From Roseobacter sp. (GTDB lineage Bacteria > Pseudomonadota > Alphaproteobacteria > Rhodobacterales > Rhodobacteraceae), in NCBI GenBank assembly GCA_011050655.1, contig DRFG01000109.1:1-32391 (forward strand): a stretch of 32,391 bases of DNA, in the 5' to 3' direction. Made by a program: the position numbers and the translations under genes. Every line of letters starts with the position of its first letter. Within the stretch, counting starts at the first letter, position 1. The notes below the pieces were generated by a model, which had not been told where the DNA came from, did no database searches, and saw nothing but the letters and a program-made list of their open reading frames with translations. Of the stretch, positions 4,163 through 25,671 are shown in pieces.

Positions 4163-5353
4163 TTACGGCTCTCGAAACGCCTCTGTGGACTTATACAAAG
4201 GCTTCAACAAATACTGCAAAACGGTCTTCGATCCTGTGTGCAATTCTACGCTTGCCTGCATGCCAGGCCTAAACTGTAACGATGCCTGCCGCTGGGTCAG
4301 GTGTTCCGTATCCACTTGCAAGGTAACCTTGTAATGTGGATCGCCATCAGCAGAGCGTGATCTTTCATCCTTGAAGGTATCCGCCGATATTACCTTAACC
4401 GTCCCTTTCAACGTGCCGTAAATGGTATAATCATAGGCTGAGAGTTTGACGGTAGCCTCCTGCCCGGGGCGCACTCCTGCGATATCCTTGGGTTTCACGC
4501 GCGCCTCGACGAAAAGCTCTTCATCAAGCGGGATGATTTGCAGTATTTCCTCCCCGGGGCGCACCACACCACCTATCGTCGTAATGCTCAGATTGTTGAC
4601 AATGCCGCGCAGCGGGCTGACCAACACGGTTCGGTTCAACTGATCGGTGCTCGCCTTCAGGTTCTGTTTCAGCGTTGCAAGCTCCTTCAGCACGTCCGAA
4701 TATTCCTGCGCACGTTCCAGTTCGGTACCGGTGATGATCTCATCCAGCTTGATCCTCGCATCGGCATGGACCTTGCGGGCACGTGTGACCTCGATCAACG
4801 ACACAATCTTCTTGCGCAGCATGTTTTCCAAAAGGTCGCGCTCTTTGGTGGCTTCCTTTAACACGCGTTTTGCCCCGTCTGATCGCGATACGAAATCAGA
4901 CTGCCGCGCCTTGAGAAGCGCGCGCTCAGATGCAACGATATCCGGAGTACGCTGCAATAATTCGGCTGGCACTTCGAAATCATACCGGCCCGCCAATTCG
5001 GCCTCTAGCCGCAGGCGACGGATTTCGAAAGCACTGATTTGATCCTCAAGGTCGTCGACAGATGATTGGAATTGCGTCCCATAAAGCCGGGCAAGCATAT
5101 CCCCCTTGTCGACAATATCGCCTTCGCCCACGCTGAGTTCAGCCAGAATGCCGCCTTCTAGGTTCTGAATGATTTGGGGTCGCGAAGATGATATCATCGA
5201 GCCTTCGGCGCGGACAATTTCATCTACCCATGCAAATGCCGCCCAAAGCAAAAAGATCAAAACGCTCGCCGCACAGAGCCAGACGACCATGGAGGGCCCG
5301 CGCATACGCAAATTTATCTGAGCGCCAAAGCGCGTCCCTTGGGCGGCGCTCAT
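4163..5353 (-). CDS. HlyD-family type I secretion periplasmic adaptor subunit
   Basis: 396 aa from ATG 5353 (MSAAQGTRFGAQINLRMRGPSMVVWLCAASVLIFLLWAAFAWVDEIVRAEG...); HlyD/LapC-like C-terminus 'PGMQASVELHTGSKTVLQYLLKPL'; ATGA overlap with upstream gene; ORF track 5' extension not needed. Confidence 0.93.
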   Translation of the reverse strand: MSAAQGTRFGAQINLRMRGPSMVVWLCAASVLIFLLWAAFAWVDEIVRAEGSMISSSRPQIIQNLEGGILAELSVGEGDIVDKGDMLARLYGTQFQSSVDDLEDQISAFEIRRLRLEAELAGRYDFEVPAELLQRTPDIVASERALLKARQSDFVSRSDGAKRVLKEATKERDLLENMLRKKIVSLIEVTRARKVHADARIKLDEIITGTELERAQEYSDVLKELATLKQNLKASTDQLNRTVLVSPLRGIVNNLSITTIGGVVRPGEEILQIIPLDEELFVEARVKPKDIAGVRPGQEATVKLSAYDYTIYGTLKGTVKVISADTFKDERSRSADGDPHYKVTLQVDTEHLTQRQASLQFRPGMQASVELHTGSKTVLQYLLKPLYKSTEAFREP

Positions 5354-7572
5354 GCAACGTTTCCTTGGTGGCTGGCCAGATGCGCCAGCACTTTTTCCTT
5401 TGGCCCATCTACTGTCATGCGCCCATCCTGAAGCACCAGTGACCGCTCCGTGAGGGCCAGAATAGGTGCGCGGTGGGTTGCGATAATCGCAGTGCGCCCT
5501 TCCATCCATTTATGCAGTCGCGCGACCAAGGACGCTTCCAATCTTTGATCTAAAGCGGCGGTGGGTTCGTCCAACAAGCAGATTGACGGATCTTGCAACC
5601 ACAACCGCGCCCAACCGATAGATTGACGTTGCCCGATGGAAAGGCCTGCGCCTGCGTCTTGAATCTCAAGATCAAGCCCTTTGTGATGGTTGCGCACGAA
5701 CATTCCCAACCCCGCAAAATCCAACGCTGCATGCAGGCGGTCGTCGTCGTGCTCTAGCATGGTCAGGTTCAGGTTATCGCGCAGCGTACCAGAAAAAAGG
5801 CGAACGTCCTGTCCCAGATAGCCAATCAGGCGGCGTAGGTCGCGTGGCTCGATCTGGCCCAATTCAGTCCCATCCAGCAAGATACGTCCCGAGCTTGGCG
5901 CATAGAGACCGCTTAAAAGCTTGAGCAGCGATGATTTTCCTGAACCGTTCGCGCCGAGCACTGCAACATGCTGTCCGGGTTGGATCAGTATCCCTTTGAT
6001 ATCGACGGTCGGAGGGCCGTCCTCTTCGTAGCGAAAGAGTACATCACGTAACTCGAACTGGCCTTTCAGCTTTTCGCGGCGAAGATAGGTCCGCTCCGCT
6101 TCACTGTCCTGCGGCGCAGCTACGATCGCTTCCAGCCCGTCGAGCGCGCCTTTGACGTTGCCCCACCGCGCCAAGGTACCCGATAATTGTGTGAGCGGCC
6201 CGAGGGTTCGCCCGGTGAGGATACCCACGGCAATGATCGACCCTACGGTGAAAGCGCCTGCAAATACCAGATAGGTGCCCACGATCACAGCGGCCACGTA
6301 CGTTGCTTGCTGGATGCCTTGGCTCCAGAAGGTCAGGAATGATGCTAACGCGCGTTGTTCAGACGATTTGATCGAGGATAACGTGTTCAGCTCGGTCCAT
6401 AGCCGGATGATACGATCTTCCGCACGTTGGGTTTTGACCGTATCGAGTTCAAAAATTGCTTCGTGCAGCAACCGCGAAGATTTGGTCGAAGCGCCTTGGG
6501 TTTCCTGCGTGAGCTGGATGGCTTTCCTTTGCAGGAAGAACCCCGGTACCAACATCAAAATGCCGCCCACGATCAATACCCACACGACGTTACCCGCGAT
6601 GCTGGCGACCAAAAACAGAAATACGAAGATAAAGGGGATGTCAGCGATGGTGCCGATGGTGGAAGCGGTAAAGAATTCACGCACAGAACCGAATTCGCGC
6701 ATGGCGGAGTATAATTGGTTCGGTGCCTGACCTCGTGTATCCGAGCGCATTCCCAGTACCCGTTTCATCAAAACATCTTGTACAGACAGCTCAATCTGAC
6801 GCCCTGCTCCATCCATCAGCCGCGCGCGCGCCATTTTCAAAAACGCCTCCATCAACAGCGCCAACATCGCACCGATGGCCAACACCCAAAGCGTCGCTTC
6901 CGATTGGTGCGGGATTACACGATCATAAACTTGAAGCGAAAACAGCGCGACCGCGACAGCCAGAAGGTTGGCGACAAACGATCCCATTGCGACTTCAACA
7001 AGCTGGCGGCGAAAACGCGGAAATTCACCCCAGAACCAGTGTACTGGTGCGGCGTCGGTCTTATGAGTCTGTGCCACGGCCTTCAACGTGGCCTCGGCGC
7101 GCACGATCACCCCGGCAAAAAAGGGATCGAAATCAGTAATCGGCACCATAGCGCGGTTGTCTGTGCAAGTTGTGTCATACACAATCAGTTCACCGCGCGT
7201 CTGGCCCATCACCAGCAAAAGCTGGCCAGAAGTCATGTAGGCAAGCGCCGGCCATAGCTCGTTGGACATCGCATCCACGCGGCTTACCTGCGTCAGCAAA
7301 CCTGCCGCCTCTAACCCCTTGGCGATGCTGCTGGCCTCTTGCTCGGCTTGCGCTCCTACGACCGAATGCCGCGATAGGATCTCAAAGATGTCGTTGGTCG
7401 GTGCGCTAACGCCTAGCAACCCCGAATAAACCGACGCCAACTTTGCCCGCGCCATCAGCCGGTCTTCCAACCGGTTGGAATTATCTGCTTTCGGCGGCGC
7501 GACCTTTGATGCGATCAAACGCCCCTGATTACCGTTGGTGATGGTCAGCGTGAAGGGGGACTTCTGAGTCAA
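5350..7572 (-). CDS. Type I secretion system permease/ATPase with degenerate C39-like N-terminal domain (LapB/BapC-like)
   Basis: 740 aa; Walker A 'GANGSGKSS', signature 'LSIGQRQS', Walker B 'ICLLDEPTAALD'; six-TM region; N-terminal ~130 aa lacks an obvious catalytic Cys motif of C39 peptidases. Confidence 0.93.
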   Translation of the reverse strand: MTQKSPFTLTITNGNQGRLIASKVAPPKADNSNRLEDRLMARAKLASVYSGLLGVSAPTNDIFEILSRHSVVGAQAEQEASSIAKGLEAAGLLTQVSRVDAMSNELWPALAYMTSGQLLLVMGQTRGELIVYDTTCTDNRAMVPITDFDPFFAGVIVRAEATLKAVAQTHKTDAAPVHWFWGEFPRFRRQLVEVAMGSFVANLLAVAVALFSLQVYDRVIPHQSEATLWVLAIGAMLALLMEAFLKMARARLMDGAGRQIELSVQDVLMKRVLGMRSDTRGQAPNQLYSAMREFGSVREFFTASTIGTIADIPFIFVFLFLVASIAGNVVWVLIVGGILMLVPGFFLQRKAIQLTQETQGASTKSSRLLHEAIFELDTVKTQRAEDRIIRLWTELNTLSSIKSSEQRALASFLTFWSQGIQQATYVAAVIVGTYLVFAGAFTVGSIIAVGILTGRTLGPLTQLSGTLARWGNVKGALDGLEAIVAAPQDSEAERTYLRREKLKGQFELRDVLFRYEEDGPPTVDIKGILIQPGQHVAVLGANGSGKSSLLKLLSGLYAPSSGRILLDGTELGQIEPRDLRRLIGYLGQDVRLFSGTLRDNLNLTMLEHDDDRLHAALDFAGLGMFVRNHHKGLDLEIQDAGAGLSIGQRQSIGWARLWLQDPSICLLDEPTAALDQRLEASLVARLHKWMEGRTAIIATHRAPILALTERSLVLQDGRMTVDGPKEKVLAHLASHQGNVA

Positions 7573-8891
7573 ATCGCGCTCCCGTCGGCAAGAACACCCT
7601 GAATGCGCGCCATCTCTACGCGCAGTGTGACCACGTCGTATTTTAATGCGACCTGAGCTTGTTGTTGCCGCGTATAGGTCTCATAGACGCCCACTACATC
7701 CATTACTTGACGCTGGCCTGCGTCGTATTGGGCCTGGAATATATCAAGGTTGCGTTTGGCTTGGGCTGCAAGCGTCGTTGCTTCGGCGGCTTGCCGGGCC
7801 TTGGCGCTAATTTGCTTTTCAAGGCGCCGCAGATCCCGGTTCGCGTCCTCGGTGGACTGGCGCAATTTTCGCGTGGCGGTTTCTTCGGCCATCTTCACCG
7901 CTTCGAGCGAGGCACTGGTCCCGAATCCCAACAGACTGTCAGATTTGACATGCAGACCCAGGTTGCTTCCCTTGCCGATGGTACCGCCCGCAGACAGACT
8001 AGGCAGAAAGCTTGCGCGATTGACCTTGGCCGAAGCGACTGCCCTGATCTTTTCCGCTTGGGCCCGGACAACGATCAGGGGTTCCGCAGCAAATGCGTTC
8101 ACCTGAAATTCGGGAATGCCACGCAAGTCGCCAAGCGGCGTGATGGACATGGCGTTCAGTTCTGAAATGGAAGTCGCATCGCGTTCGATTGACGCCTCGT
8201 AGCGGGCCCTGATTTCGGCAAGCTTCTGGCGAAGAACCGTCAGGTCAGACATGTCCGAAACACCGCCCTTGACCCTTTCTTGCATGACCCATTCAAAATG
8301 AGTCATATCCTTTAGCGTCACTACATCGAGCGCTGCGTTTTCACGCGCTTGCGCGGCGGTGGTATAAAGCTTGAGAGCTGTGGCAACGCGGTCATTGGTA
8401 TCTTGCGCCAGCGACACAGCCGCAACTTCGACATCCGCCACAGCAAAGGCACGTTCGCCAGCACGGCGCCCGTTATCAAATAACACCTGATCAACCACCA
8501 AATTCGCAGCGAGCGACCCAAGCGATGTCAGGCTGACCTGCGGGCCGATTTTTGGCAACCAGTTCTTGCTGGCCGCTTCCGACCGAAGCGTAGCTGCGCG
8601 AACCTCGGATTCAGCCGTACGACTGTTGGCCGCCAGAACCGATGACGCGACGGTGGCCGCGACGGAGTCAGCGGGCAGTACGGATGTCCGCGTCGCCAAC
8701 CCTTGGATAATCTGGCTGTCGGCGGTGATCTTTTCCGCATAGGTCGGCTTGATAGCCTGTGTCGCATCAGGCGATCTGAAGCGCGAGACGAGGTCGGCAG
8801 GCGCATACCTTTCGCTGATGTCCGACATGCAGCCGGACAGGGCCAGCGCCAAAACGCACATGCCCCCTGCCCCTTTTACGCTCTGCCCCAT
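7569..8891 (-). CDS. TolC-family outer membrane efflux/secretion protein, predicted lipoprotein
   Basis: 440 aa; N-terminal 'MCVLALALSGC' lipobox; TolC-like coiled-coil repeats ending 'YDAGQRQVMDVVGVYETYTRQQQAQVALKYDVVTLRVEMARIQGVLADG'; 4 nt overlap with the ABC gene. Confidence 0.88.
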   Translation of the reverse strand: MGQSVKGAGGMCVLALALSGCMSDISERYAPADLVSRFRSPDATQAIKPTYAEKITADSQIIQGLATRTSVLPADSVAATVASSVLAANSRTAESEVRAATLRSEAASKNWLPKIGPQVSLTSLGSLAANLVVDQVLFDNGRRAGERAFAVADVEVAAVSLAQDTNDRVATALKLYTTAAQARENAALDVVTLKDMTHFEWVMQERVKGGVSDMSDLTVLRQKLAEIRARYEASIERDATSISELNAMSITPLGDLRGIPEFQVNAFAAEPLIVVRAQAEKIRAVASAKVNRASFLPSLSAGGTIGKGSNLGLHVKSDSLLGFGTSASLEAVKMAEETATRKLRQSTEDANRDLRRLEKQISAKARQAAEATTLAAQAKRNLDIFQAQYDAGQRQVMDVVGVYETYTRQQQAQVALKYDVVTLRVEMARIQGVLADGSAI

Positions 8892-8979
8892 ATCCTGCCC
8901 TTAACGTGCCGGTATTATTATCTTGATCCGTCCGGGGAAACCGGCCCCCCGTCCCGTCTTTAACTACAGCCTATCGTCT

Positions 8980-11900
8980 TCAGATAAGCACATTGATGTC
9001 ATTATCGATCATCAATGTCCCCTCAGAGCCCAGCGTATAGATATCGTAGGTTTGGCCATCTTTGACTTCAAACCCATCCCGTACTGCGCCTGTGATTGTC
9101 ACCGTGTCGTCGCTGAAACCATTCACGATCAATGAATTTGTATTCTTCGACAAATTTACTAACGCGGCCTCGGTGATCGTCAATTGAGCTTCCTCTGCAA
9201 ATTGCAAATCAACAGTTTCGATATTGTATTGCGCCAAGTTAGGATTGCTGAGGTCGAGCCGTGTATTCGCACTTTCGTCGTCCAGCGCGAGATAGGTTCC
9301 CGACGAGTTTCCCGCCGTGTCCGTTGCCGTCACGACCAAGTCGGACCCGTCGGGCACATTGGTATTGAACTGAAAATTACGCTCCCCGATGGCATCGATG
9401 TCAAAGCTGGTGGCGTCGACTTCGGATATGGACCGATCTGCGTTGATCTGGTGAACATCCAGCGTGTCCGGGCTGATTTCGGTTGAGATTCCGCGTATAC
9501 CGTCGCCGTCGCGAGTGTAAGATGCGATGACGGGGCCCTCTGGCGCGTATGTGTCAATCGCCAACGTATCGGAGATTGAGGCGATATTGCCCACGTGGTC
9601 GGTTGCTGTAACCGATATGTCGGCATCATAAGTGCCCGGACGGATGCTCGCAGGCGGGATCATAACAGTCCAGTTGCCTGAAGAGTCCACCGACGCTGTG
9701 TAGTTCGTGCCGTCGAAATTGACCACGACAGTCGAACCCGCTTCAACGCGGCCATTCAGGTCGATCCCGGCCTCTGCTTCGCGGGCGGAGACGATAGCGT
9801 CGTTGCCTCCGGCTTGATCCATGTTCAACGGGTCAACCACAGTGTCGATGAGCACCGCATGACTTGCACTGGCAGAGTTTCCTGCCTGATCGGTAGCCTT
9901 CACAGAAACGGTTGTATTGATCGTGCCTTGAGGGATTTGACCGGGGGCAAACGTGACGGACCAGTTACCGTTCGCATCCACCACACCGTTCATTGAGGCG
10001 TTACCAAGACTTACCACTACCGATGACCCGATTTCACTGGTACCTGATACTGTTACGCCACCATCGGCAAGGCGCTCTGCACCGCTGACGATATCGTCAC
10101 CTTCAACCTTGTTGAGCGAAAGGTTGTCAACGCGTGTATCGACCTGCACGCTATCGGTTGCGCTACGGGTGTTGCCAGCACTGTCCGTAGTCGTGGCGGT
10201 GATGTCAGCGTTATAGACACCTTGAGCAACCTCGCCTGCCGCATAATAGGATGTCCACTGACCGTTTGCGTCCGCTACGACAGTGTGAGTAATTCCCGCA
10301 AGGGTAACCTGCACGACGGCTCCTGCATCAGCAGTACCTGAAATAGCAACGCCGTCACTTGCTTCGGCCGCATTGACAACGTCGTCGCCTTCAATCGGGG
10401 CCGCGTTGATGGTCAACGACCCTGCTTCGGTATCGACAGATACCGACTGAGATACGCTATCGGTGTTCCCGGCTGCATCGGTGGCTGTGGCGGTCATGGT
10501 TGTCGTATATGTACCCGCCGGAATATCCGAAGGGGCAAAAGTCACGCTCCAGCTACCGTCTGCTGCCACGGTGGCCGCATGAGACACCTGGCCAAGCTTA
10601 ACCATCACGGAAGAACCGGGTTCAACGGTGCCGGTCATAACGATACCCTGCGCCGCCTCCGAACCATTCACAATGCCGTCGCTTCCTCCGGTCTGGCCCG
10701 TAAAGGCAAGATCGCGAACCAAAGTATCGATTTGTATCTGGCCGGTTACGGTCGAGCTGTTGCCGACGCTATCGGTGGCAACAGCCGTTACTGTCGCGAC
10801 CGCTTCACCCGTGGGCACTTCGGACGCCGCGAACTGCGCGCTCCAATTTCCGTTTGCATCAACTGTCGCAGCTTTAGTTGCCGAACCAAAGGTGACATCG
10901 ACCGTCGACCCCGGTTGCGCCGTGCCTGTCAGGGTCACCCCATCGGCCCGCTCAGCCGCGTTCACTACGCCGTCCACTTCGACGCTATCCGTAGCAAGGG
11001 TTACTTCGGAAACCGTATCGACAGCTAACTGTTCTGTAACTGTAGTGGCGTTGCCGAACTTGTCGGTAGCGATAATGGTAATATCGCTGACATATTCGCC
11101 TTCCGGCAATGTGCCAGGTTGCCACGTAGCGGACCACGTGCCGTTTTCCCCTACCGTAGCTGTGCGCGTAATACCCCCAACAGTCAGTTGAATTGTGGCA
11201 CCAGGTTCGCTTTCGCCGGAGAGGGTTACACCGTTGCTAAACGCAGCCCCGTTAAAGATATCGCCTACTGATTGCGAACCTGACGTGACTGTTACCGCCG
11301 GTGCCAGCGTATCAACAACCAACGTCTCCACGCTTGTGGACGTATTGCCATATTGATCGGTCGACTTGATCGAAATTTCGGTCTCGTACTCACCAGCTTC
11401 GAGCATGCCCGGTTCGAACGTTACCGACCATGTTCCGTCGTCGGCGACGGTTGTGGTGACGACCTTTTCGCTTACTGTGACCTCTACATCTGTACCGGCT
11501 TCGCCAGTGCCCTTCAGAGTGACGCCCGTCGCAAATCCGTCGGCATTAAAGTAATCCGAAACGCCTTTGGTCCCTTCGGTCACGGTGACAACTGGGGCGG
11601 TGGTGTCGATTACGAAGCTCGGACCATCCAGTGTGGCTTCTTCTCCATCCGTTGTCACCGTAACAACGGCCTCATGGTTTCCGTCCGCCGGGAAATTATC
11701 ACCCTCGAAAACTGCCTCAAACGTACCGTCGTCACCAACAGTAGTAGTGACCTGTTTCTCGCCAACAGTAACGACAACCTCAGATCCCGGCTCACCCCCA
11801 CCGGTAACAGTGACGCTTTTTGTGGCCTCATCGCCTCCGACTGTGGCAGACGATTCAGGTTCATTTACAAATGGTGGTGCCTTGGACGCACCGCCGCCGG

Positions 11901-12447
11901 TGCCATTCCCGCCCGCACCTAGCACGGCGGCCCCACCGACTGCGGCTGCGGCCGCGACTGTCGCAGCACCACCGCCACCGACCACACCACCGAGCAAGGG
12001 CGCTGCCAACATCGAGACCTCGTCATCCCCGCCGGCAATCGCGCCACCGGGGGGCATGATTGCATCGCTGCGACCAAGATAGATCAGATCGTCCGAAGGG
12101 CTCCACTTGCCCCACTGCTCAGTAGGACCGTATTGCGCAAAAAGACTGCCCCCGTCCGCTTCAACAAAAGCCACCTCGTTCAGATATCCATCTGACGAAA
12201 TGAACAGACGATTGGGGGTGCCCGCTTGATTGAAGTAATTTTCAATGGTGATGACACGACCATCGGCAAGCGTAAGTAAAAGGTCGCTGCCCGCGCGCTG
12301 TTGAGAAAGAAAATCAGTCTGGCGCAGGTTCAGGGAAATTTCCTGACCCGACTGGGCCTGAATAATATGCGACTCGGCACCATCCAAAACCATGCCACGC
12401 TGCAATGCGCCCGCTTGATCGCGAACGACGAAATCTATCGTCTTCAT
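8980..12447 (-). CDS. BapA-like adhesin: BapA-prefix N-terminal domain, Gly/Ala-rich linker, tandem bacterial Ig-like domains, C-terminal type I secretion signal
   Basis: 1155 aa from ATG 12447 (MKTIDFVVRDQAGALQRGMVLDGAESHIIQAQSGQEISLNLRQTDFLSQQRAGSDLLLTLADGRVITIENYF); at least 8 repeats of about 95-98 aa each ending in V/I-DT; C-terminus 'DLSNPNLAQYNIETVDLQ...LTITEAALVNLSKNTNSLIVNG...MIDNDINVLI'; lies just upstream of type I secretion genes. ORF track extends to 12507. Confidence 0.88.
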   Translation of the reverse strand: MKTIDFVVRDQAGALQRGMVLDGAESHIIQAQSGQEISLNLRQTDFLSQQRAGSDLLLTLADGRVITIENYFNQAGTPNRLFISSDGYLNEVAFVEADGGSLFAQYGPTEQWGKWSPSDDLIYLGRSDAIMPPGGAIAGGDDEVSMLAAPLLGGVVGGGGAATVAAAAAVGGAAVLGAGGNGTGGGASKAPPFVNEPESSATVGGDEATKSVTVTGGGEPGSEVVVTVGEKQVTTTVGDDGTFEAVFEGDNFPADGNHEAVVTVTTDGEEATLDGPSFVIDTTAPVVTVTEGTKGVSDYFNADGFATGVTLKGTGEAGTDVEVTVSEKVVTTTVADDGTWSVTFEPGMLEAGEYETEISIKSTDQYGNTSTSVETLVVDTLAPAVTVTSGSQSVGDIFNGAAFSNGVTLSGESEPGATIQLTVGGITRTATVGENGTWSATWQPGTLPEGEYVSDITIIATDKFGNATTVTEQLAVDTVSEVTLATDSVEVDGVVNAAERADGVTLTGTAQPGSTVDVTFGSATKAATVDANGNWSAQFAASEVPTGEAVATVTAVATDSVGNSSTVTGQIQIDTLVRDLAFTGQTGGSDGIVNGSEAAQGIVMTGTVEPGSSVMVKLGQVSHAATVAADGSWSVTFAPSDIPAGTYTTTMTATATDAAGNTDSVSQSVSVDTEAGSLTINAAPIEGDDVVNAAEASDGVAISGTADAGAVVQVTLAGITHTVVADANGQWTSYYAAGEVAQGVYNADITATTTDSAGNTRSATDSVQVDTRVDNLSLNKVEGDDIVSGAERLADGGVTVSGTSEIGSSVVVSLGNASMNGVVDANGNWSVTFAPGQIPQGTINTTVSVKATDQAGNSASASHAVLIDTVVDPLNMDQAGGNDAIVSAREAEAGIDLNGRVEAGSTVVVNFDGTNYTASVDSSGNWTVMIPPASIRPGTYDADISVTATDHVGNIASISDTLAIDTYAPEGPVIASYTRDGDGIRGISTEISPDTLDVHQINADRSISEVDATSFDIDAIGERNFQFNTNVPDGSDLVVTATDTAGNSSGTYLALDDESANTRLDLSNPNLAQYNIETVDLQFAEEAQLTITEAALVNLSKNTNSLIVNGFSDDTVTITGAVRDGFEVKDGQTYDIYTLGSEGTLMIDNDINVLI
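9530..11860 (-). repeat. Array of diverged Ig-like protein repeats within the adhesin (about 290 bp period)
   Basis: Protein-level periodicity: each unit carries 'GxVxxxGxxEPGSxVxVxxGxxxxxxTVxxDGxWSVxFxPxxxPxGxYxxxxxxxATDxxGNxxxxxxxxxVDT'; boundaries approximate. Confidence 0.8.
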
Positions 12448-12810
12448 AATAATACCGCTCTGCCTCGGTGCCCGCTTTTTGCGTAGCGCCAAAATATTGA
12501 ATGACAACCGACCCTTAAATAGATCGTGTAGCCGCCTGATGATGTTCGCTATGTTAAACGAAACTTATTATTGAAACCTGTATACCCTTTTTGCCCTGAA
12601 AAAGCCAAGTTTTAATTCATAACGGCACAGTCTTGCCACATTTCACAGTGCACATTGGACACACTTTCAACCTGTGGGCGAAACAATTATCTAAATTAAT
12701 AGATCACTGCCATTCTCCAAGGATTCCAAAAACTTAAAGATCGTCCTTAAATTTCGGGGCAAATCAGGTGTCCAGTTGACAACCCCGCTGGGGCTAGCAA
12801 GTCTGCGCGC
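12448..12810. promoter_or_regulatory. AT-rich divergent intergenic region between the adhesin operon (-) and the CocE hydrolase (+)
   Basis: About 360 bp without a supported gene, visibly more AT-rich than flanks; includes ATCTA-AATTAA-TAGAT dyad (12689-12704) and TTGACA at 12776-12781; exact promoters not resolved. Confidence 0.5.
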
Positions 12811-14805
12811 ATGGAAAATACCTCTAACGAGCCTTTGCCGCTGATTGAAGACCCTGATGTTGGCATCACCCTATCCGATGGGTGCCGCCTATCCGCAAGA
12901 ATTTGGCGGCCGCAGAATGCCAATGAACAACCGGTTCCGGCGATTTTGGAATACCTTCCCTATCGAAAGCGCGACGGCACCACGGGGCGCGACGCGCTTA
13001 CACATCCCTGGTTCGCGGAACGGGGCTATGCCTGCGTACGGGTTGACATGCGCGGTAACGGTGACAGCCAAGGCATAATGGAGGACGAATATACCCCCCA
13101 GGAACAGGCGGATTGCATCGAAGTGATAAACTGGCTTGCGTCGCAGCCATGGTGCAGCGGCAGCGTCGGGATGATGGGGATTAGCTGGGGTGGCTTCAAC
13201 GGGCTGCAAGTGGCCGCGCACGATCCCAAGCCATTAAAGGCGGTTGTTACTTTGTGTTCCACCGTGGATCGCTTTGCCGATGACATCCACTATAAAGGCG
13301 GATGCCTGCTGAACGAAAACCTTGGCTGGGGCGCGACCATGTGGGCCTATTCCAGCCGGGCTCCAGACCCTGCCCTGCGTCAAGACTGGCGTGAGATGTG
13401 GCTAGAACGGCTGAAGGCAGAGCCCTTTCTTCCTTCGCTTTGGCTGCGCCATCAGACCCGCGATGCCTATTGGAAACAGGGGTCGGTGATCGAGGATTAT
13501 TCAGCGATCAAGGCCAAGGTTCTGGCGATCGGCGGCTGGGGTGACGCGTATAAAAACGCCGTTCCCCAACTGGTCGAAGCCTTGCCTGGGGCCAAGGGCA
13601 TTGTTGGTCCTTGGGTACATAAATATCCGCATTTTGCGATCCCCGAACCGCGCATCGGGTTTCTGCAAGAAGCGCTGCGTTGGTGGGACCAGTGGCTGAA
13701 AGGGATCGACACCGGCGTAGAGAAAGACCCCGACTATCGTGCCTATTTGATGGACGGAATGCGCCCCGCCGCTTGGGTATCGCAACGTCCAGGCCGATGG
13801 ATTGCGGAAACGGACGGAGCCACTTCGCATTTAGCTAAAAAGCTGCTGCACCTGACAGATAAAGGGCTAACGGATGACACCGGCACGCTAAGCACTGTCA
13901 TTCAAACGCCGGCTCATTGTGGCGCAGACGCCGGCGAATACTGTGCGATATGGCTAGGGCCGGAAATGCCAGGGGACCAGCGCCACGATGATGCATTATC
14001 GGCGACCTTTGATACTGCGCCCTTGGCGGATGATTACGATATCGTAGGGGCACCCCGTATCTCTTTCAACCTTACCAGCGACAGACCGCATGGCCAAATC
14101 GCAGTACGACTAAACCACGTACATCCTGACGGGGCCAGCGCTCGGATCACCTATGGCGTGCTTAATTTGTGTCACCGCGATAGCCCTGAAACCCCCGCCC
14201 CGGTCCCGTGCGGCGACGCAATTACGGTAAATTTTGATCTGGACCACATCGCGTATCGCATCCCTGCCGGTCACCGGCTGCGCGTGTCCGTATCCAATGC
14301 TTATTGGCCGCTGATCTGGCCAGCCCCCGAAGCATCCAGCCTTAGACTGGCGTCAGGCCATGTGGAGATGCCCCAACGTCCGACCACCGGGGGTGACGAA
14401 TATGTTTTCCCACCCCCGACTGCTGCCGCCCCTTGGACCACGCAAACGTTACGTGCCGAAAACCATGAGCGCCGTCAGGAAACTAATATGGTAACCGGCG
14501 AGGTTTCTCTGACCATCGAGGATGATTTCGGTAAGGTTCGCGATTGTGATCATGGCCTGATATCGGGGTCAATTGCCCGCGAACGTTGGACCATCAAACC
14601 CGACGACCCGTCATCGGCTATAGGTGCGTGTCACTGGACCGAAGAGCTGGAGCGAGATGACATCCGACTGCGCACAGAAACCCATTCGAAAATGTGGTCA
14701 GACGCAACGTTTTTTCATCTTACCGCCCGCGTAGAGGCGTATGAAAACGATATATTGATCTACGAACGCGACGTAGTGGATAGCATTAAGCGGCACTTTA
14801 TGTAA
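12811..14805 (+). CDS. CocE/NonD family hydrolase (X-Pro dipeptidyl-peptidase-like)
   Basis: 664 aa; 'AILEYLPYRKRDGTTGRD', 'GYACVRVDMRGNGDSQGI', nucleophile motif 'GISWGGFNGLQ', C-terminal jelly-roll-like region. Confidence 0.92.
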   Translation: MENTSNEPLPLIEDPDVGITLSDGCRLSARIWRPQNANEQPVPAILEYLPYRKRDGTTGRDALTHPWFAERGYACVRVDMRGNGDSQGIMEDEYTPQEQADCIEVINWLASQPWCSGSVGMMGISWGGFNGLQVAAHDPKPLKAVVTLCSTVDRFADDIHYKGGCLLNENLGWGATMWAYSSRAPDPALRQDWREMWLERLKAEPFLPSLWLRHQTRDAYWKQGSVIEDYSAIKAKVLAIGGWGDAYKNAVPQLVEALPGAKGIVGPWVHKYPHFAIPEPRIGFLQEALRWWDQWLKGIDTGVEKDPDYRAYLMDGMRPAAWVSQRPGRWIAETDGATSHLAKKLLHLTDKGLTDDTGTLSTVIQTPAHCGADAGEYCAIWLGPEMPGDQRHDDALSATFDTAPLADDYDIVGAPRISFNLTSDRPHGQIAVRLNHVHPDGASARITYGVLNLCHRDSPETPAPVPCGDAITVNFDLDHIAYRIPAGHRLRVSVSNAYWPLIWPAPEASSLRLASGHVEMPQRPTTGGDEYVFPPPTAAAPWTTQTLRAENHERRQETNMVTGEVSLTIEDDFGKVRDCDHGLISGSIARERWTIKPDDPSSAIGACHWTEELERDDIRLRTETHSKMWSDATFFHLTARVEAYENDILIYERDVVDSIKRHFM

Positions 14806-14936: not shown

Positions 14937-16426
14937 ATGAATGATCAACTGGAATATATGACCGGTCAGGTGGCCAAAGGTACGATGACCCGTCGCGAAT
15001 TTGTTGGCCGGGCGGGGAATCGACCAACACGCTTGATCCGGCTTTGACAGCCTCTGAAGTGCCGCTTGATAACCTGCGCCACCTGTATGAAACGCTAGTC
15101 GAGGTGAACCCGGCGGGCGAAGTTGAACCACGCATGGCCGAGAGCTATGAAGCATCGGCCGACGCGAAAACATGGGCTTTCAAAATCCGCAAAGGGATCC
15201 AGTTCCATAACGGCAAGGACATGACCCCCGAAGACGTACTGAAAACCATGCAGCGTCACTCGGATGAAAACAGCCAGTCAGGTGCGTTGGGCATCATGCG
15301 CGGCATCGAAAACATGAAGGTCGACGGCGACAACTTGATCGTTGAACTGGGCGTCGGCAACGCTGACCTTCCCTACCTCATGGCCGATTACCACCTGATG
15401 ATCCAGCCCGATGGCGGCATGGATAACCCCGGTGCCGGTATCGGTACGGGTCCATACACGCTGGAAGTCGACGAGCCCGGCGTTCGCCACGGCTTCACGC
15501 GCAACGAGAACTACTGGGATGCCGACAACCGTGGCTTTACCGATTATAACGAAGTGCTGGTTCTGAACGATGCCACCGCGCGTACCGCGGCGCTGCAATC
15601 GGGTCAGGTCAACATGATCAACCGCGTTGACCCTAAGGTTGCTGCCCTACTGGATCGGGCGCCAAACCTAAGCGTCAAATCTGTCTCCGGTCGTGGCCAC
15701 TATGTGTTCATCGCCCATGTAGATACCGCACCTTTCGACAACAACGATCTGCGGCTGGCTTTGAAATATGCGATCAACCGCGAAGAAATGGTTGATAAGA
15801 TCCTGCGCGGCTATGGCTCTATCGGGAACGACATGCCGATCAACGCGTCCTATCCGCTGTTCGATGCGTCGATTCCTCAGCGTGAACACTCCATCGAAAA
15901 AGCTAAAGAGCATTACGCAAAATCCGGTCACGACGGCAGCCCAATTATTCTGCGCGTTGCAGATGGTGCCTTCCCAGGTGCCGTAGAGGCCGCTTCGCTT
16001 TTCCAGGAATCGGCGAAAGCCGCCGGTATCCCGCTGGAAATCAAGCGCGAGCCAAATGACGGCTATTGGTCCGAAGTCTGGAATGTGAAGCCTTTCTGTG
16101 CCTCGTATTGGGGTGGTCGTCCGGTACAGGACCAGATGTATTCGACAGCCTATCTTTCAAGTGCCGACTGGAACGATACCCGTTGGAAGCGCCCGGAATT
16201 CGACGCAATGCTGTTAGAAGCACGCGCCGAACTGGACGAAGCCAAGCGCAAGGCAATCTATTCCAAGATGGGCATGATGCTGCACAACGAAGGCGGTGTG
16301 ATATTGCCAATGTTCAATGATTTCGTGGATGGGGTTGCCAACAACGTCGGCGGTTGGATCAAAGATCCGAACGCAGAATTGATGAACAACAAAGCCCCGA
16401 TCAAATGCTGGGTTAAAGACGCATAA
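14937..16426 (+). pseudogene. Peptide-type (family 5) ABC transporter substrate-binding protein with an N-terminal deletion/frameshift
   Basis: ATG 14937 after 'AGGGAGAA' gives 'MNDQLEYMTGQVAKGTMTRREFVGRAGNRPTRLIRL*' (stop 15045-15047); mature frame begins at about 15011 (GGESTNTLDPALTASEV...) and stays open to 16426 in another frame; no hydrophobic signal core lies between them. Confidence 0.75.
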
Positions 16427-16434
16427 GGTAACAT

Positions 16435-17397
16435 ATGCTTATGCACCCTGTACTGAAACTGATCGCCCAACGCTTAGCGTTGGGCCTTCTTCTGCTCTTT
16501 GCCGCGTCGGTCTTGATCTTCGTAGGCACCTCGATTTTGCCAGGTGACGTGGCACAATCCATATTAGGGCAATCCGCCACGCCCGAAGCGTTGGCGAACA
16601 TGCGCCGCGAACTCGGCTTGAACGACCCCGCCGTAACCCGCTATTTCGCATGGCTCGGTGGTGTGTTGCAGGGCGATCTGGGCACCGCGTTGACCAATGG
16701 CCGCGACATCGCAGACAGCCTTGGCGGACGATTGAAAAACACTCTGTTTCTTGCCTTCTGGGCGGCCGCGATTTCGGTCCCGCTAGCGATTTCCCTTGGA
16801 CTTCTAGCGGTTCGATACAAAGACCGCTGGCCCGACAAGCTGATTTCAGCGGTGACGCTGACGACTATCTCTATCCCTGAATTCATGATCGGCTATATTT
16901 TGATCTATTGGGTCGCGATCAAGTGGCGGCTGTTTCCGTCGGTCGCGATCATCAACGACAGCATGAGCCTTGGTGAAAAGCTCAATGCCATCGCTATTCC
17001 GGTGATGGTTCTTACGCTGGTCGTCTTAGCGCATATGATGCGTATGACCCGCGCCGCTATCTTGAACGTGATGCAGTCGGCCTATATCGAGACCGCCGAG
17101 CTGAAAGGGCTTGGGATGCTGAAAATCATCCGCAAGCATGCCTTCCCCAACGCCATTGCACCGATTGTCAATGTGGTGATGCTGAACCTCGCTTATCTGG
17201 TGGTTGGTGTCGTCGTGGTCGAAGTGGTGTTCGCCTATCCGGGAATGGGGCAATATCTGGTCGATCACGTCAGCAAACGTGATGTTCCGGTTGTGCAGGC
17301 TTCGGGCCTGATCTTTGCCGCAGTTTATATCGGGCTGAACCTGGTTGCCGATATTGTTTCCATCCTAGCCAACCCCCGGCTGAGGCATCCGAAATGA
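16435..17397 (+). CDS. ABC transporter permease (DppB/OppB-like)
   Basis: 320 aa; 'LGLNDPAVTRYFAWLGGVLQGDLGTALTNGRDI', 'TRAAILNVMQSAYIETAELKGL', typical DppB-like permease. Confidence 0.93.
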   Translation: MLMHPVLKLIAQRLALGLLLLFAASVLIFVGTSILPGDVAQSILGQSATPEALANMRRELGLNDPAVTRYFAWLGGVLQGDLGTALTNGRDIADSLGGRLKNTLFLAFWAAAISVPLAISLGLLAVRYKDRWPDKLISAVTLTTISIPEFMIGYILIYWVAIKWRLFPSVAIINDSMSLGEKLNAIAIPVMVLTLVVLAHMMRMTRAAILNVMQSAYIETAELKGLGMLKIIRKHAFPNAIAPIVNVVMLNLAYLVVGVVVVEVVFAYPGMGQYLVDHVSKRDVPVVQASGLIFAAVYIGLNLVADIVSILANPRLRHPK

Positions 17398-18209
17398 AAA
17401 ACATTCCCATTTCTGCAATGATCGGCCTGTTTTTCACCGGGCTTTACTTTCTGATGGCAATTTTTGCGCCTTTGTTAGCGCCGTACGGCATGGCCGAAAT
17501 CGTCGGCGACGTGTGGGAGCCTTCATCTTCGCAGTTCCTGTTGGGCACGGACAGTATCGGACGCGACCTGCTGAGCCGGATGATCTATGGCGGGCGTACG
17601 ACGATCTTTATCGCCACCGCTGCTACGGTCCTCAGCTTCACCTTGGGTTCTGTACTGGGCTTTTTTGCCGCGGTATCCGGCGGCTGGGTGGATCAGGCGA
17701 TCTCGCGGTTTGTCGATCTAATCATGTCAATTCCATCGCTGATTTTTGCGCTGGTGGTATTATCAGTGATGCCGACAACTGTCCCGATCCTTATCCTTCT
17801 GATGGGGTTGCTCGACAGTACTCGGGTCTTCCGGTTGGCCCGCGCCGTTGCCGTGGATATCACGGTGATGGACTATGTCGAGGCCGCCCGTCTTCGAGGC
17901 GAGAAAATCGGCTGGATCATTTTCCGGGAAACGCTTCCAAATGCCCTTTCACCGCTGGTCGCTGAAATGGGTCTGCGGTTTATCTTTGCAGTGTTGTTCG
18001 TGTCGACCCTGTCGTTCTTGGGGCTTGGCGTTCAACCCCCGCAGGCTGACTGGGGCGGCATCGTGAAAGAGAACAAAGAAGGCATCAACTATGGCATTCA
18101 GGCAGCGCTTTATCCAGCCTATGCCATCGCCACATTGTGTATCTCGATCAACCTTGTTGCGGACTGGATCTTGACCCGCACCACATCGCTTAAAGGGGGC
18201 CGGGGATGA
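17394..18209 (+). CDS. ABC transporter permease (DppC/OppC-like)
   Basis: 271 aa; 'FLLGTDSIGRDLLSRMIYGGRTTIFIA', 'DYVEAARLRGEKIGWIIFRETLPN'; ATGA overlap with the previous gene. Confidence 0.93.
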   Translation: MKNIPISAMIGLFFTGLYFLMAIFAPLLAPYGMAEIVGDVWEPSSSQFLLGTDSIGRDLLSRMIYGGRTTIFIATAATVLSFTLGSVLGFFAAVSGGWVDQAISRFVDLIMSIPSLIFALVVLSVMPTTVPILILLMGLLDSTRVFRLARAVAVDITVMDYVEAARLRGEKIGWIIFRETLPNALSPLVAEMGLRFIFAVLFVSTLSFLGLGVQPPQADWGGIVKENKEGINYGIQAALYPAYAIATLCISINLVADWILTRTTSLKGGRG

Positions 18210-19843
18210 CCGAGCCACTTCTCAAGGTACGCGGCCTGAAAATCGGGGCAACAGCGTATCCACCCGGTGAACGCCCTGTCGCGATCAAGATCGTACACGG
18301 CGTCGACTTTGAGCTTGAAGCTGGCAAAGTGCTTGGCCTCATCGGTGAATCAGGTGCCGGAAAATCCACGATCGGCCTTGCGGCGATGGCCTATGGCCGC
18401 GGCGGGGTCGAAATTACCGGCGGCGAGGGTTGGGTCAACGGGCGCGATATCCTAAAAGAGAGATTGCGAAGCATCCGGCGCCTACGGGGGGCCGAAGTAA
18501 CCTATGTTTCGCAATCTGCTGCGGCGTCTTTCAACCCGGCCAAAAAGATCATGGATCAGGTGACCGAAGCGGCGATCTATCAAAACAAGTTTTCAAAAGC
18601 CGAGGCCGAAGATCGCGCAGTCGAGCTGTTTCGCAAACTTGGCCTGCCCGATCCGGAAACCATCGGCAACCGCTATCCCCATCAAGTGTCAGGCGGCCAG
18701 TTACAACGCTGCATGACCGCGCTCGCATTGTGCCCCGAACCCGATCTGGTGGTCTTTGACGAACCAACCACGGCACTGGATGTGACCACCCAGATCGACG
18801 TGCTGGCCGCCATAAAGGAAGCCATCGCGGCAACCGGCGTCGCAGCCCTGTACATCACCCATGATCTCGCCGTGGTTGCACAGGTCAGCGACCATATCAT
18901 GGTGCTGCAACAGGGCGAAATGGTGGAATACGGGACCACCGATCAAATCATCAACAACCCGCAAGAAGAGTATACTAAAGCGCTTGTTTCGGTTCGGTCG
19001 ATCCGGCACGAGGAAAAGACGCCGACCGACACCCCGGTGCTAAGGGTTGAAAACATTACCGCCCGCTATGCCGGTACGACCTTTGACGTTCTCAAGAAAA
19101 TCAATGTCGATATTCACCCCGGCCAGACATTGGCGGTAGTTGGTGAATCCGGCTCTGGCAAATCCACACTCGCGCGGGTGATTACCGGCTTGTTGCCGCC
19201 AACTGACGGGCAGATTACTTTCGACGGTCGTGTGTTGGCCCCTGCCCTGTCTTCGCGCCCTATTGATGACCTGCGCGAAATGCAGATGATTTATCAGATG
19301 GCGGATACGGCAATGAATCCGCGCCAGACCGTGGGGACAATCATTGGTCGGCCGCTCGAATTCTACTTTGGCTTAAAAGGCAAAGCCAAGCAGAAGCGCA
19401 TCCAAGAATTGCTGGATGAGATCGAACTGGGTGACGGGTTTCAAGATCGCTACCCCGCGGAACTATCGGGTGGACAAAAGCAACGTGTCTGTATTGCCCG
19501 TGCGCTTGCCGCCAAACCCAAACTGATCATATGTGATGAGGTCACTTCTGCATTAGATCCGCTGGTTGCTGATGGTATTCTCAAACTGTTGCTTAACCTT
19601 CAGAAAATAGAAGACGTTGCCTATCTGTTCATCACGCATGATTTGGCCACGGTGCGTGCTATCGCAGATAGTATAGCCGTGATGTATCAAGGCGAGGTCG
19701 TGCGCTATGGTCCGAAAAGCCAGGTTCTGTCGCCTCCGTTTGACGACTACACCGACCTGCTTCTCAGCTCTGTGCCAGAGATGAAAATCGGTTGGCTTGA
19801 GGAAACCATTGAACATCGCCGCATGGAAAGTGCCGGCAACTAG
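18206..19843 (+). CDS. Fused dual-ATPase ABC transporter ATP-binding protein (DppD-DppF-like)
   Basis: 545 aa with two Walker A (GESGAGKST, GESGSGKST), two signatures (VSGGQLQR, LSGGQKQR); ATGA overlap with permease gene. Confidence 0.94.
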   Translation: MTEPLLKVRGLKIGATAYPPGERPVAIKIVHGVDFELEAGKVLGLIGESGAGKSTIGLAAMAYGRGGVEITGGEGWVNGRDILKERLRSIRRLRGAEVTYVSQSAAASFNPAKKIMDQVTEAAIYQNKFSKAEAEDRAVELFRKLGLPDPETIGNRYPHQVSGGQLQRCMTALALCPEPDLVVFDEPTTALDVTTQIDVLAAIKEAIAATGVAALYITHDLAVVAQVSDHIMVLQQGEMVEYGTTDQIINNPQEEYTKALVSVRSIRHEEKTPTDTPVLRVENITARYAGTTFDVLKKINVDIHPGQTLAVVGESGSGKSTLARVITGLLPPTDGQITFDGRVLAPALSSRPIDDLREMQMIYQMADTAMNPRQTVGTIIGRPLEFYFGLKGKAKQKRIQELLDEIELGDGFQDRYPAELSGGQKQRVCIARALAAKPKLIICDEVTSALDPLVADGILKLLLNLQKIEDVAYLFITHDLATVRAIADSIAVMYQGEVVRYGPKSQVLSPPFDDYTDLLLSSVPEMKIGWLEETIEHRRMESAGN

Positions 19844-19908
19844 GAACGTTCAGTTTGGTTTCGCAAGCACAACACTGACAGTTTAACCAAGCATCGCCGA
19901 GGTATGTG

Positions 19909-20745
19909 ATGAAGAATAAACTCCTGCTGATCATTCTCGATGGCGTGCCCCATCGAAATTTCCGTCGCCTGTTTGGCAACCTTGAGGGATGGGTAGAACG
20001 CGGCGATGCCCGTGTCTGGACACAGCGCGCGGTACTGCCGTCAATTTCGGCGTCCTGCTATGCGTCGATCCACACCGGCGTCGCGCCTTCGGAACACGGC
20101 TGTACCGGCAACGGAAACGTCTTTCGGCTGAAACATAAGGACGTGTTCGCCCAAGTACGCGAAGCGGGAGGTGTGACCGGCGCGGTAACCCATTCCTTCT
20201 GGTCAGAGTTCTTTAATCGCCATCCCTTCGACTATGTGCGCGATATCGAATACGACGAACCTGAAAGCCACACGATCAACCACGGTCGGTTTCACACCAT
20301 GACCGGTTACGGGTTGATCAATCAGATGACCCCCTCTGATGTCGATCTTTTTGGAACGCTCACCAATCTGGCGGCTCGGTTTGGGCTGAACTACGGGATA
20401 CTGCACACCTGCACGCTCGACAGCATGGGCCACCGCTTTTTCCACGACTGCCAGGAAATGGACCACGCCTGCGCCGTCATGGATGAAATGCTGGCCCCGT
20501 TCATACCGAAATGGCGCGCCATGGGGTACGAGGTGATCGTCACCGCTGACCACGGACAGGATGAGCGCGGCCATCATGGCGGGCGCGGTGCATTGCAACA
20601 AGAAACCGCGTTATATTATTTCGGTGATGCCGAAGGGCCGTCCGAGGACACGGTGATTGATCAATTACAATTGGCCCCGACAATCCTGAAGCGTCTAGGC
20701 GCGCCTGTAGCTGATACGATGAAGGCCAAGTCGTTTCTTAAGTAG
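19909..20745 (+). CDS. Alkaline phosphatase superfamily protein / nucleotide pyrophosphatase-phosphodiesterase-like
   Basis: 'MKNKLLLIILDGVPHRNFRRLFG', 'RAVLPSISASCYASIHTGVAPSEHGCTGN', 'VIVTADHGQDERGHHGGRG' metal/nucleophile motifs; GTG 19906 or ATG 19909 start. Confidence 0.85.
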   Translation: MKNKLLLIILDGVPHRNFRRLFGNLEGWVERGDARVWTQRAVLPSISASCYASIHTGVAPSEHGCTGNGNVFRLKHKDVFAQVREAGGVTGAVTHSFWSEFFNRHPFDYVRDIEYDEPESHTINHGRFHTMTGYGLINQMTPSDVDLFGTLTNLAARFGLNYGILHTCTLDSMGHRFFHDCQEMDHACAVMDEMLAPFIPKWRAMGYEVIVTADHGQDERGHHGGRGALQQETALYYFGDAEGPSEDTVIDQLQLAPTILKRLGAPVADTMKAKSFLK

Positions 20746-23556: not shown

Positions 23557-23831
23557 ATATTCCTCCCTTTTGGTGCAGTTTACCTGCATCCTCATTCCCT
23601 GCGGTCAAAGATGATGGCAAATGAAACCTTGCGCAAGCATTTGCATCGTCCGACAAGCGCCTACGCTGTCATTTGACCCAACGGAATGAAGGAAAAAATC
23701 ACGGGGTTGATGATTTACGCACCCCTTTTACGGGAATTTATAGTGAGTTCACTGAAAGGTAGTTCAGTTTAATCCCCCCTGCACCGTGCGCTAACATTGC
23801 CAGTGAAAAGCAGACCACACTCAAACCTGCC

Positions 23832-23847
23832 CGGGTGTTTGCACCCG
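23832..23847. terminator. Perfect 6 bp stem hairpin downstream of ABC exporter gene (candidate terminator on - strand)
   Basis: CGGGTG-TTTG-CACCCG, about 25 bp past the exporter stop; weak T-tract, so low confidence. Confidence 0.3.
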
Positions 23848-23871
23848 TTAATACATCAGATTATCTATGCG

Positions 23872-25671
23872 TCATTCGGCGGCAATTCCGTCAGTGAATT
23901 GCAAGCGTGCCAATCTTGCATAAAGCCCGCCCTTTGAAACCAGTTCATCATGGGTGCCGGTGTCCACGATTTGGCCTGCTTCCATAACAACAATGCGGTC
24001 GGCTTTTTTCACCGTTGCCAAGCGATGTGCCACAATCAAAGTCGTGCGATCGGCGCTTAGCTTGTCGACAGCAGCCTGTACCGCCCGTTCGCTTTCGGCA
24101 TCCAGCGCACTTGTTGCTTCGTCCAATAGCAGCACAGGCGCGTCACGCAGGATCGCCCGCGCGATAGCGATACGCTGTTTCTGACCGCCCGATAGCATCA
24201 CACCACGCTCACCCAGATAGCTGTCGTACCCTTCGGGCAGCTCGCTGATAAAACTATCAGCAGCAGCGGCCTTGGCGGCAATCACGATTTCCGCGTCAGT
24301 TGCATCAGGCCGCCCGAACCGGATGTTTTCTCGGGCAGATGAAGCGAATATCACCGGGTCTTGCGGCACAAGAGCAACCGATCGGCGGAAAACGTCGCGT
24401 GCAACTTCGCGCAAGTCTACACCATCCAGTGTGATACGACCCGAACTGGGGTCATAAAAGCGCAAGATAAGTTGAATGATCGTCGTTTTACCTGCCCCCG
24501 ATGGCCCGACGAACGCAATAGTTTCGCCCGGGTTTATCACCAGATTAACCCCATTCAGCGCAGGGGCCGCAGGGCGCGCCGGATAGGCAAACTGGACATT
24601 TTCGAATGCGATGCGCCCTGCGACCGGTGCTGGCAACGTCGCTGAGTTGACAGGGTCCTTGACCGAGTCCGTGGTATGCAGCAATTCGACCAGACGTTCG
24701 GTTGCGCCGGCGGCGCGTTGTAATTCGCCCCAGATTTCGGACAAGGCAGCGACGCCCCCCGCAACCATCACGGCATATATCACAAACTGCACCAATGCGC
24801 CCGGCGTCATGTCTCCGGCACGTACATCGCGTGCACCCATCCAAAGCACACCCACCACCCCGGCAAACACCAGGAAAATTACAATGACCGTCATAACGGC
24901 GCGTGTCTTGATCCGCCTTTGGGCCGCGTCATACGACAGCTCCGTCAAACGTGCGAACTGGGCACGGCTGGCGATCTCATTGGTAAATGCCTGCACGGTC
25001 TGCACCGCGCCAAGGCTTTCCGAGGCATTGCCGGAACTTGCGGCGATCCAATCCTGGTTTTCCCGGCTCATCACCCGCAACCGGCGCCCCAACACCAATA
25101 TGGGCACAATCACGGCAGGAACGATTAACAGCACCATCGCGGCCAGCTTGGCCGAGGTCAGCAGCATGAAAACCAATCCCCCTGTTACGATCAGAAGATT
25201 TCGCAAGGCGATGGATACCGACGACCCGATGACCGATAGGATCACGGTAGTATCCGTCGTGATCCGGCTCAGGACTTCGCCAGTCATGATTTTTTCGTAA
25301 AACTCGGGGCTCATCCCGATCACACGGTCGAATACAGCTTTGCGGATGTCCGCCACCACCCGTTCACCGAAACGTGTCACCAATGCATATCTAAGGCCGG
25401 TTCCGAGCGCTAAGAGCGCGGCGATAATTAGCGCTGCGACGAAATACTGGTCCAGTAGTTCGGTTTCGCCACTGCCGAAATTATCTATAACCCTGCGGAC
25501 CGCCAAGGGAAGGGTCAGCGATATCATCGCGGTGATCATCAGCGCCAGGATAGCGGCAATCATCAGGGGACGATAAGGGTGGACGAACGGAACCAACGCC
25601 CGCAGCGCCCCCAGTTTGCGCGACTTCTTGCGTTCTTCTTGAGTCGGGCCGGGCGTGGGGGTGCGTGCCAT
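23872..25671 (-). CDS. ABC transporter, fused TM/ATPase (MsbA/lipid-drug exporter-like)
   Basis: 599 aa; 'GPSGAGKTTIIQLILRFYDPSSGRITLDGVDLREV', 'LSGGQKQRIAIARAILRDAPVLLLDEATSALDAESE', N-terminal six-TM domain. Confidence 0.94.
   Translation of the reverse strand: MARTPTPGPTQEERKKSRKLGALRALVPFVHPYRPLMIAAILALMITAMISLTLPLAVRRVIDNFGSGETELLDQYFVAALIIAALLALGTGLRYALVTRFGERVVADIRKAVFDRVIGMSPEFYEKIMTGEVLSRITTDTTVILSVIGSSVSIALRNLLIVTGGLVFMLLTSAKLAAMVLLIVPAVIVPILVLGRRLRVMSRENQDWIAASSGNASESLGAVQTVQAFTNEIASRAQFARLTELSYDAAQRRIKTRAVMTVIVIFLVFAGVVGVLWMGARDVRAGDMTPGALVQFVIYAVMVAGGVAALSEIWGELQRAAGATERLVELLHTTDSVKDPVNSATLPAPVAGRIAFENVQFAYPARPAAPALNGVNLVINPGETIAFVGPSGAGKTTIIQLILRFYDPSSGRITLDGVDLREVARDVFRRSVALVPQDPVIFASSARENIRFGRPDATDAEIVIAAKAAAADSFISELPEGYDSYLGERGVMLSGGQKQRIAIARAILRDAPVLLLDEATSALDAESERAVQAAVDKLSADRTTLIVAHRLATVKKADRIVVMEAGQIVDTGTHDELVSKGGLYARLARLQFTDGIAAE

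Follow-up and report, generated by a model that had tools for sequence, protein, structure and literature searches.

Type I importers require their binding protein. In DppBCDF/NikBCDE-type operons, the genes for the substrate-binding protein (SBP), two permeases and the ATPases lie together, and the SBPs of these dipeptide/nickel-type ABC importers are DppA/NikA-like proteins of family 5 (PF00496). The closest counterparts of the locus described here are the orthologous Tat-leader SBPs of Sulfitobacter, Ruegeria, Roseobacter and their allies, which share with it the locus, the neighbouring genes and the leader n-region MNDQL..MTRREFVGRA. In these orthologues, for example that of Sulfitobacter sp. 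HGT1, about 38 more leader codons follow in one frame, whereas the window, i.e. the whole stretch of 32,391 nucleotides of Roseobacter sp. DNA that was analysed, lacks 115 nt. We consider it likely that the gene is a recently inactivated, Tat-exported family-5 SBP of the adjacent dipeptide/nickel-type importer, disrupted by a single 115-bp deletion.

The importer locus and its split binding-protein gene

The mature SBP domain, the adjoining permeases and the double ATPase match those of the PF00496 DppA/NikA-like systems (Table 1), and all components of a DppBCDF/NikBCDE-type operon are found together, with the SBP itself broken. The PF00496 (SBP_bac_5) match of the mature part has an E-value of 1.9e-66 and spans profile positions 1-367 of 368. 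Together with the domain matches of the permeases and the double ATPase, this agrees with the original prediction that the rest of the SBP reading frame and the downstream importer genes are intact. In contrast to the DppA/NikA-like SBPs, the gene in the window has neither an export signal nor a continuous frame, and it reaches no curated SBP equivalog cut-off. Models for nickel, dipeptide, glutathione and opine binding proteins are matched far below their curated cut-offs, and the nearest solved relatives are likewise mixed. A literature search on the SBP and importer locus retrieved nothing, and scans for promoters and terminators around the SBP gene gave nothing convincing.

Table 1. Features of the SBP gene and the adjacent importer genes in the window.
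Feature	Position	Strand	Description	Basis
CocE/NonD-family S15 hydrolase	12811..14805	+	intact, conserved upstream neighbour	TIGR00976, PF02129; synteny
Remnant leader ORF	14937..15047	+	36 aa + TGA; Tat n-region with RR motif (MTRREF), without h-region, then out-of-frame residues	translation and alignment to intact leaders
Deletion junction CGGGC	15009..15013	+	two matching pieces overlap here; 115 nt missing	
Mature SBP part	15011..16426	+	471 aa, family 5, frame -1 relative to leader, without good start codon of its own	PF00496
Restart candidate TTG	15044..15046	+	overlaps leader stop (TTGA); only near in-frame restart; product would be cytoplasmic, minus first 11 retained residues	
Permease, DppB/NikB-like	16435..17397	+	intact	PF00528
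Permease, DppC/NikC-like	17394..18209	+	intact	PF00528
Fused double ATPase (DppD-DppF type)	18206..19843	+	intact	PF00005, two domains
Type I phosphodiesterase/nucleotide pyrophosphatase-like	19906..20745	+	intact, usually near importer	PF01663; synteny

The ATG at 14937 is preceded by an RBS-like AGGGAGA and opens the Tat-type leader MNDQLEYMTGQVAKGTMTRREFVGRA. Its frame is lost at 15009-15013 and runs into the out-of-frame residues GNRPTRLIRL; the complete translation of this frame is MNDQLEYMTGQVAKGTMTRREFVGRAGNRPTRLIRL, ended by a TGA at 15045-15047. The mature sequence GGESTNTLDPA... begins at 15011 in the -1 frame, which stays open to the stop at 16424-16426. Hence no single open frame joins start and stop as in a Tat-exported SBP, and the frameshift does coincide with the junction, as had been claimed. 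The -1 frame is also open back to 14945, and between 14945 and 15011 it contains no ATG, GTG or TTG. The overlap of a TTG with the leader stop was confirmed; reading of the sequence 5-10 nt upstream of this codon revealed no Shine-Dalgarno-like run.

The remnant leader retains the twin-arginine motif and has no in-frame hydrophobic region. Its maximum 15-residue hydropathy is -0.25, compared to 1.17-1.86 in the named relatives, and it gives no match to TIGR01409 (TAT_signal_seq), while the intact orthologue scores 20.1, above the cut-off of 16.7. When the two frames are rejoined, the maximum rises to 0.29. The signal-peptide core is thus lost and joining both frames does not restore it, two points that the original prediction had made; without a hydrophobic core in the rejoined sequence, neither frameshifting nor re-initiation could yield an exported protein.

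Further downstream, the stop of dppB and the start of dppC overlap in an ATGA at 17394-17397, a common state in the family. A second 'deletion' of about 134 bp at this position (17394), seen against the genomes G019, G033 and G012, was considered as a paired lesion and rejected, because across the named loci the overlap is widespread and the presence of the spacer depends on the clade. The spacer of about 134 bp is thus an insertion in these three genomes and the window is normal. Another intergenic region, at 23646-23887, is 243 bp long in the window, about 390 bp less than in the same three genomes, where it measures about 630-646 bp.

The deletion and its junction

The relatives of the window's genome (4.1 Mb in 315 contigs, of which the window is contig 109) belong to Sulfitobacter, and the mature SBP is 95% identical to that of Sulfitobacter sp. 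HGT1. An in-frame RR (twin-arginine) leader of 60-67 aa is present in 80 of 80 named related loci, which range from Sulfitobacter to Ruegeria and Thalassovita. Each of the 29 whole-genome relatives (L002-L030) likewise has a Tat leader that reads in a single frame; the two sets overlap, as some of the latter are the same organisms as the named loci. The short N-terminus of the window was found in none of them. As in a pseudogene, the lesion blocks the ancestral product and is absent from the orthologues.

Alignment to the orthologous loci, which the original prediction had called for, allowed the deletion to be measured. The distance from the ATG to the GGEST motif is 74 nt in the window and 189 nt in G019 and the closest relatives; relative to G019, G033, G016, G012 and G011, 115 nt (38 codons plus one base) are missing. 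This fits the predicted loss of roughly 30-40 residues with a length not divisible by three. With the removed segment went the hydrophobic region of the Tat signal, the cleavage region and what is predicted to be the first beta-strand of the mature domain; structure prediction places this strand at residues 57-62 of the intact orthologue (regional pLDDT of about 76-87). Seven residues that are invariant in 38 full-length relatives are deleted along with it, namely A28, L29, G30, A36 and A46 of the leader and G55 and G56 of the mature part.

The sequence common to both breakpoints is short. CG (15009-15010) is certainly shared, and depending on the sequence of the lost left copy the match may extend to CGGGC (15009-15013); in an intact relative the segment has no larger direct repeats on its two sides, with at most 5 bp shared. 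The missing segment was not found elsewhere in the 315-contig genome. A phase-variable locus would have repeats or recombinase sites for reversal, or would keep the segment elsewhere; here the breakpoints have no repeat beyond 5 bp and no copy of the segment is retained. A breakpoint homology of 2-5 bp and the absence of the removed DNA from the genome rule out ordinary phase switching and any switching back, so that the earlier suggestion of a phase-variable lesion does not hold.

Illegitimate recombination, or slippage during replication, at the 2-5 bp of shared sequence probably removed the 115 bp and so fused leader codon ~26 to the codon of residue 64 with a shift of one base. Started at the normal ATG, translation would then end in a 36-residue dead-end peptide, and even if TTG 15044 were occasionally used for re-initiation, or the ribosome changed frame, the product would at best be a cytoplasmic protein without a signal. 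The importer would be left without its cognate binding protein and would not work in the strain of the window; given the need of type I importers for a binding protein, it is most likely inactive. In its single lesion, small breakpoint homology and unrelaxed selection, the gene resembles recent bacterial pseudogenes that arose from short illegitimate deletions, and nothing distinguishes it from these.

Age and origin of the lesion

When the window is compared pairwise with three relatives, the mature SBP gives dN/dS values of 0.034-0.051, and intact relatives among themselves give 0.059-0.075. For dppB, dppC, dppDF and the phosphodiesterase gene the values are 0.018-0.035, and for the hydrolase gene 0.07-0.08. 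As the synonymous distances between the window and the relatives are large (0.7 to over 2), these low ratios indicate that the SBP gene was functional almost throughout the time since the split from the compared relatives. By dN/dS, nothing but the single lesion points to decay of the mature SBP. The strong purifying selection on the mature SBP and the operon (dN/dS 0.02-0.08) implies that the lesion is either very young or of culture or assembly origin. The strongly conserved mature domain could also mean that the protein is still in use, though this is hard to imagine without a start codon or a signal.

A very young lesion may have arisen in culture or be confined to a part of the population, with the wild gene intact. 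This is a special case of a real deletion and overlaps with the explanation that we favour; we regard it as possible, but clearly on the less probable side. The lack of decay past the single lesion is consistent with it. Nothing points to culture specifically, however, since a natural recent loss would look the same in one assembly.

It is rather unlikely that the 115 bp are present in the organism and were lost from the draft assembly by a sequencing or assembly artefact. The draft nature of the genome, with its 315 contigs and an estimated contamination of 3.26%, would be compatible with such an error, as would the clean purifying selection on the remaining SBP gene and the fact that no sister genome carries the deletion. 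However, any repeat at the breakpoints is limited to about 5 bp, which makes an error by repeat collapse unlikely, and no other contig contains the missing DNA. A survey of broken genes points in the same direction. Here, 347 kb of the genome were compared to 1.6 Mb of the relative G033, as a sample of the genome, and stops and gaps were counted in about 70 aligned orthologues after removal of antisense shadow ORFs. If an ORF antisense to paaA is set aside, no compared orthologue other than the SBP had an internal stop or a gap of at least 12 residues. The idea of a genome full of broken genes was hence rejected, and the absence of any other broken gene among about 70 argues against a poor assembly.

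Most likely, then, a single gene was lost in an ordinary and apparently recent event, either in nature or in culture; the chance of an assembly error is minor. Annotations and metabolic models should mark the SBP as disrupted and credit the genome with no working copy of this importer. The locus is a clean case in which a Tat leader was lost very recently inside an otherwise conserved operon, and it opens no general question.

Other binding proteins and short forms

The importer might instead rely on an orphan SBP in place of its own, whose loss would then be tolerated or adaptive. The genome encodes nine other family-5 SBPs, and the search for an orphan SBP proposed in the original prediction yielded one with a Tat leader (L141; 555 aa, G000:C291:16769-18433), near which no permease gene was seen in the stretches read. 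None of the nine is a close paralogue of the broken SBP, the best being about 27-30% identical to it. Moreover, hits like the orphan (~27% identity) occur in nearly all Sulfitobacter relatives beside an intact cognate SBP, so the orphan is not a replacement; it is suggested by its distribution to be a genus-wide stand-alone SBP. We thus judge the earlier proposal that the importer borrows another SBP to be very improbable. Still more improbable is that the importer switched to the orphan, or that the leaderless SBP took on a cytoplasmic role, in such a way that the loss of export was adaptive rather than damaging.

That re-initiation at the TTGA, or a programmed -1 frameshift, yields a functional protein in a short or cytoplasmic form can practically be dismissed. 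The TTG overlapping the stop and the G-run at the junction could speak for it, but the rejoined frames have no hydrophobic region, the predicted first strand of the fold is missing, the TTG has no Shine-Dalgarno-like sequence and none of the relatives (80 named loci) uses such a form.

Upstream of the disrupted SBP gene and its operon, the translations at 4163-12507 of the window show an apparent type I secretion set (HlyD-like protein, ABC exporter and outer-membrane factor) and, next to it, a protein of 1175 aa with repeated Ig-like segments which, by its translation, is probably a large secreted adhesin.
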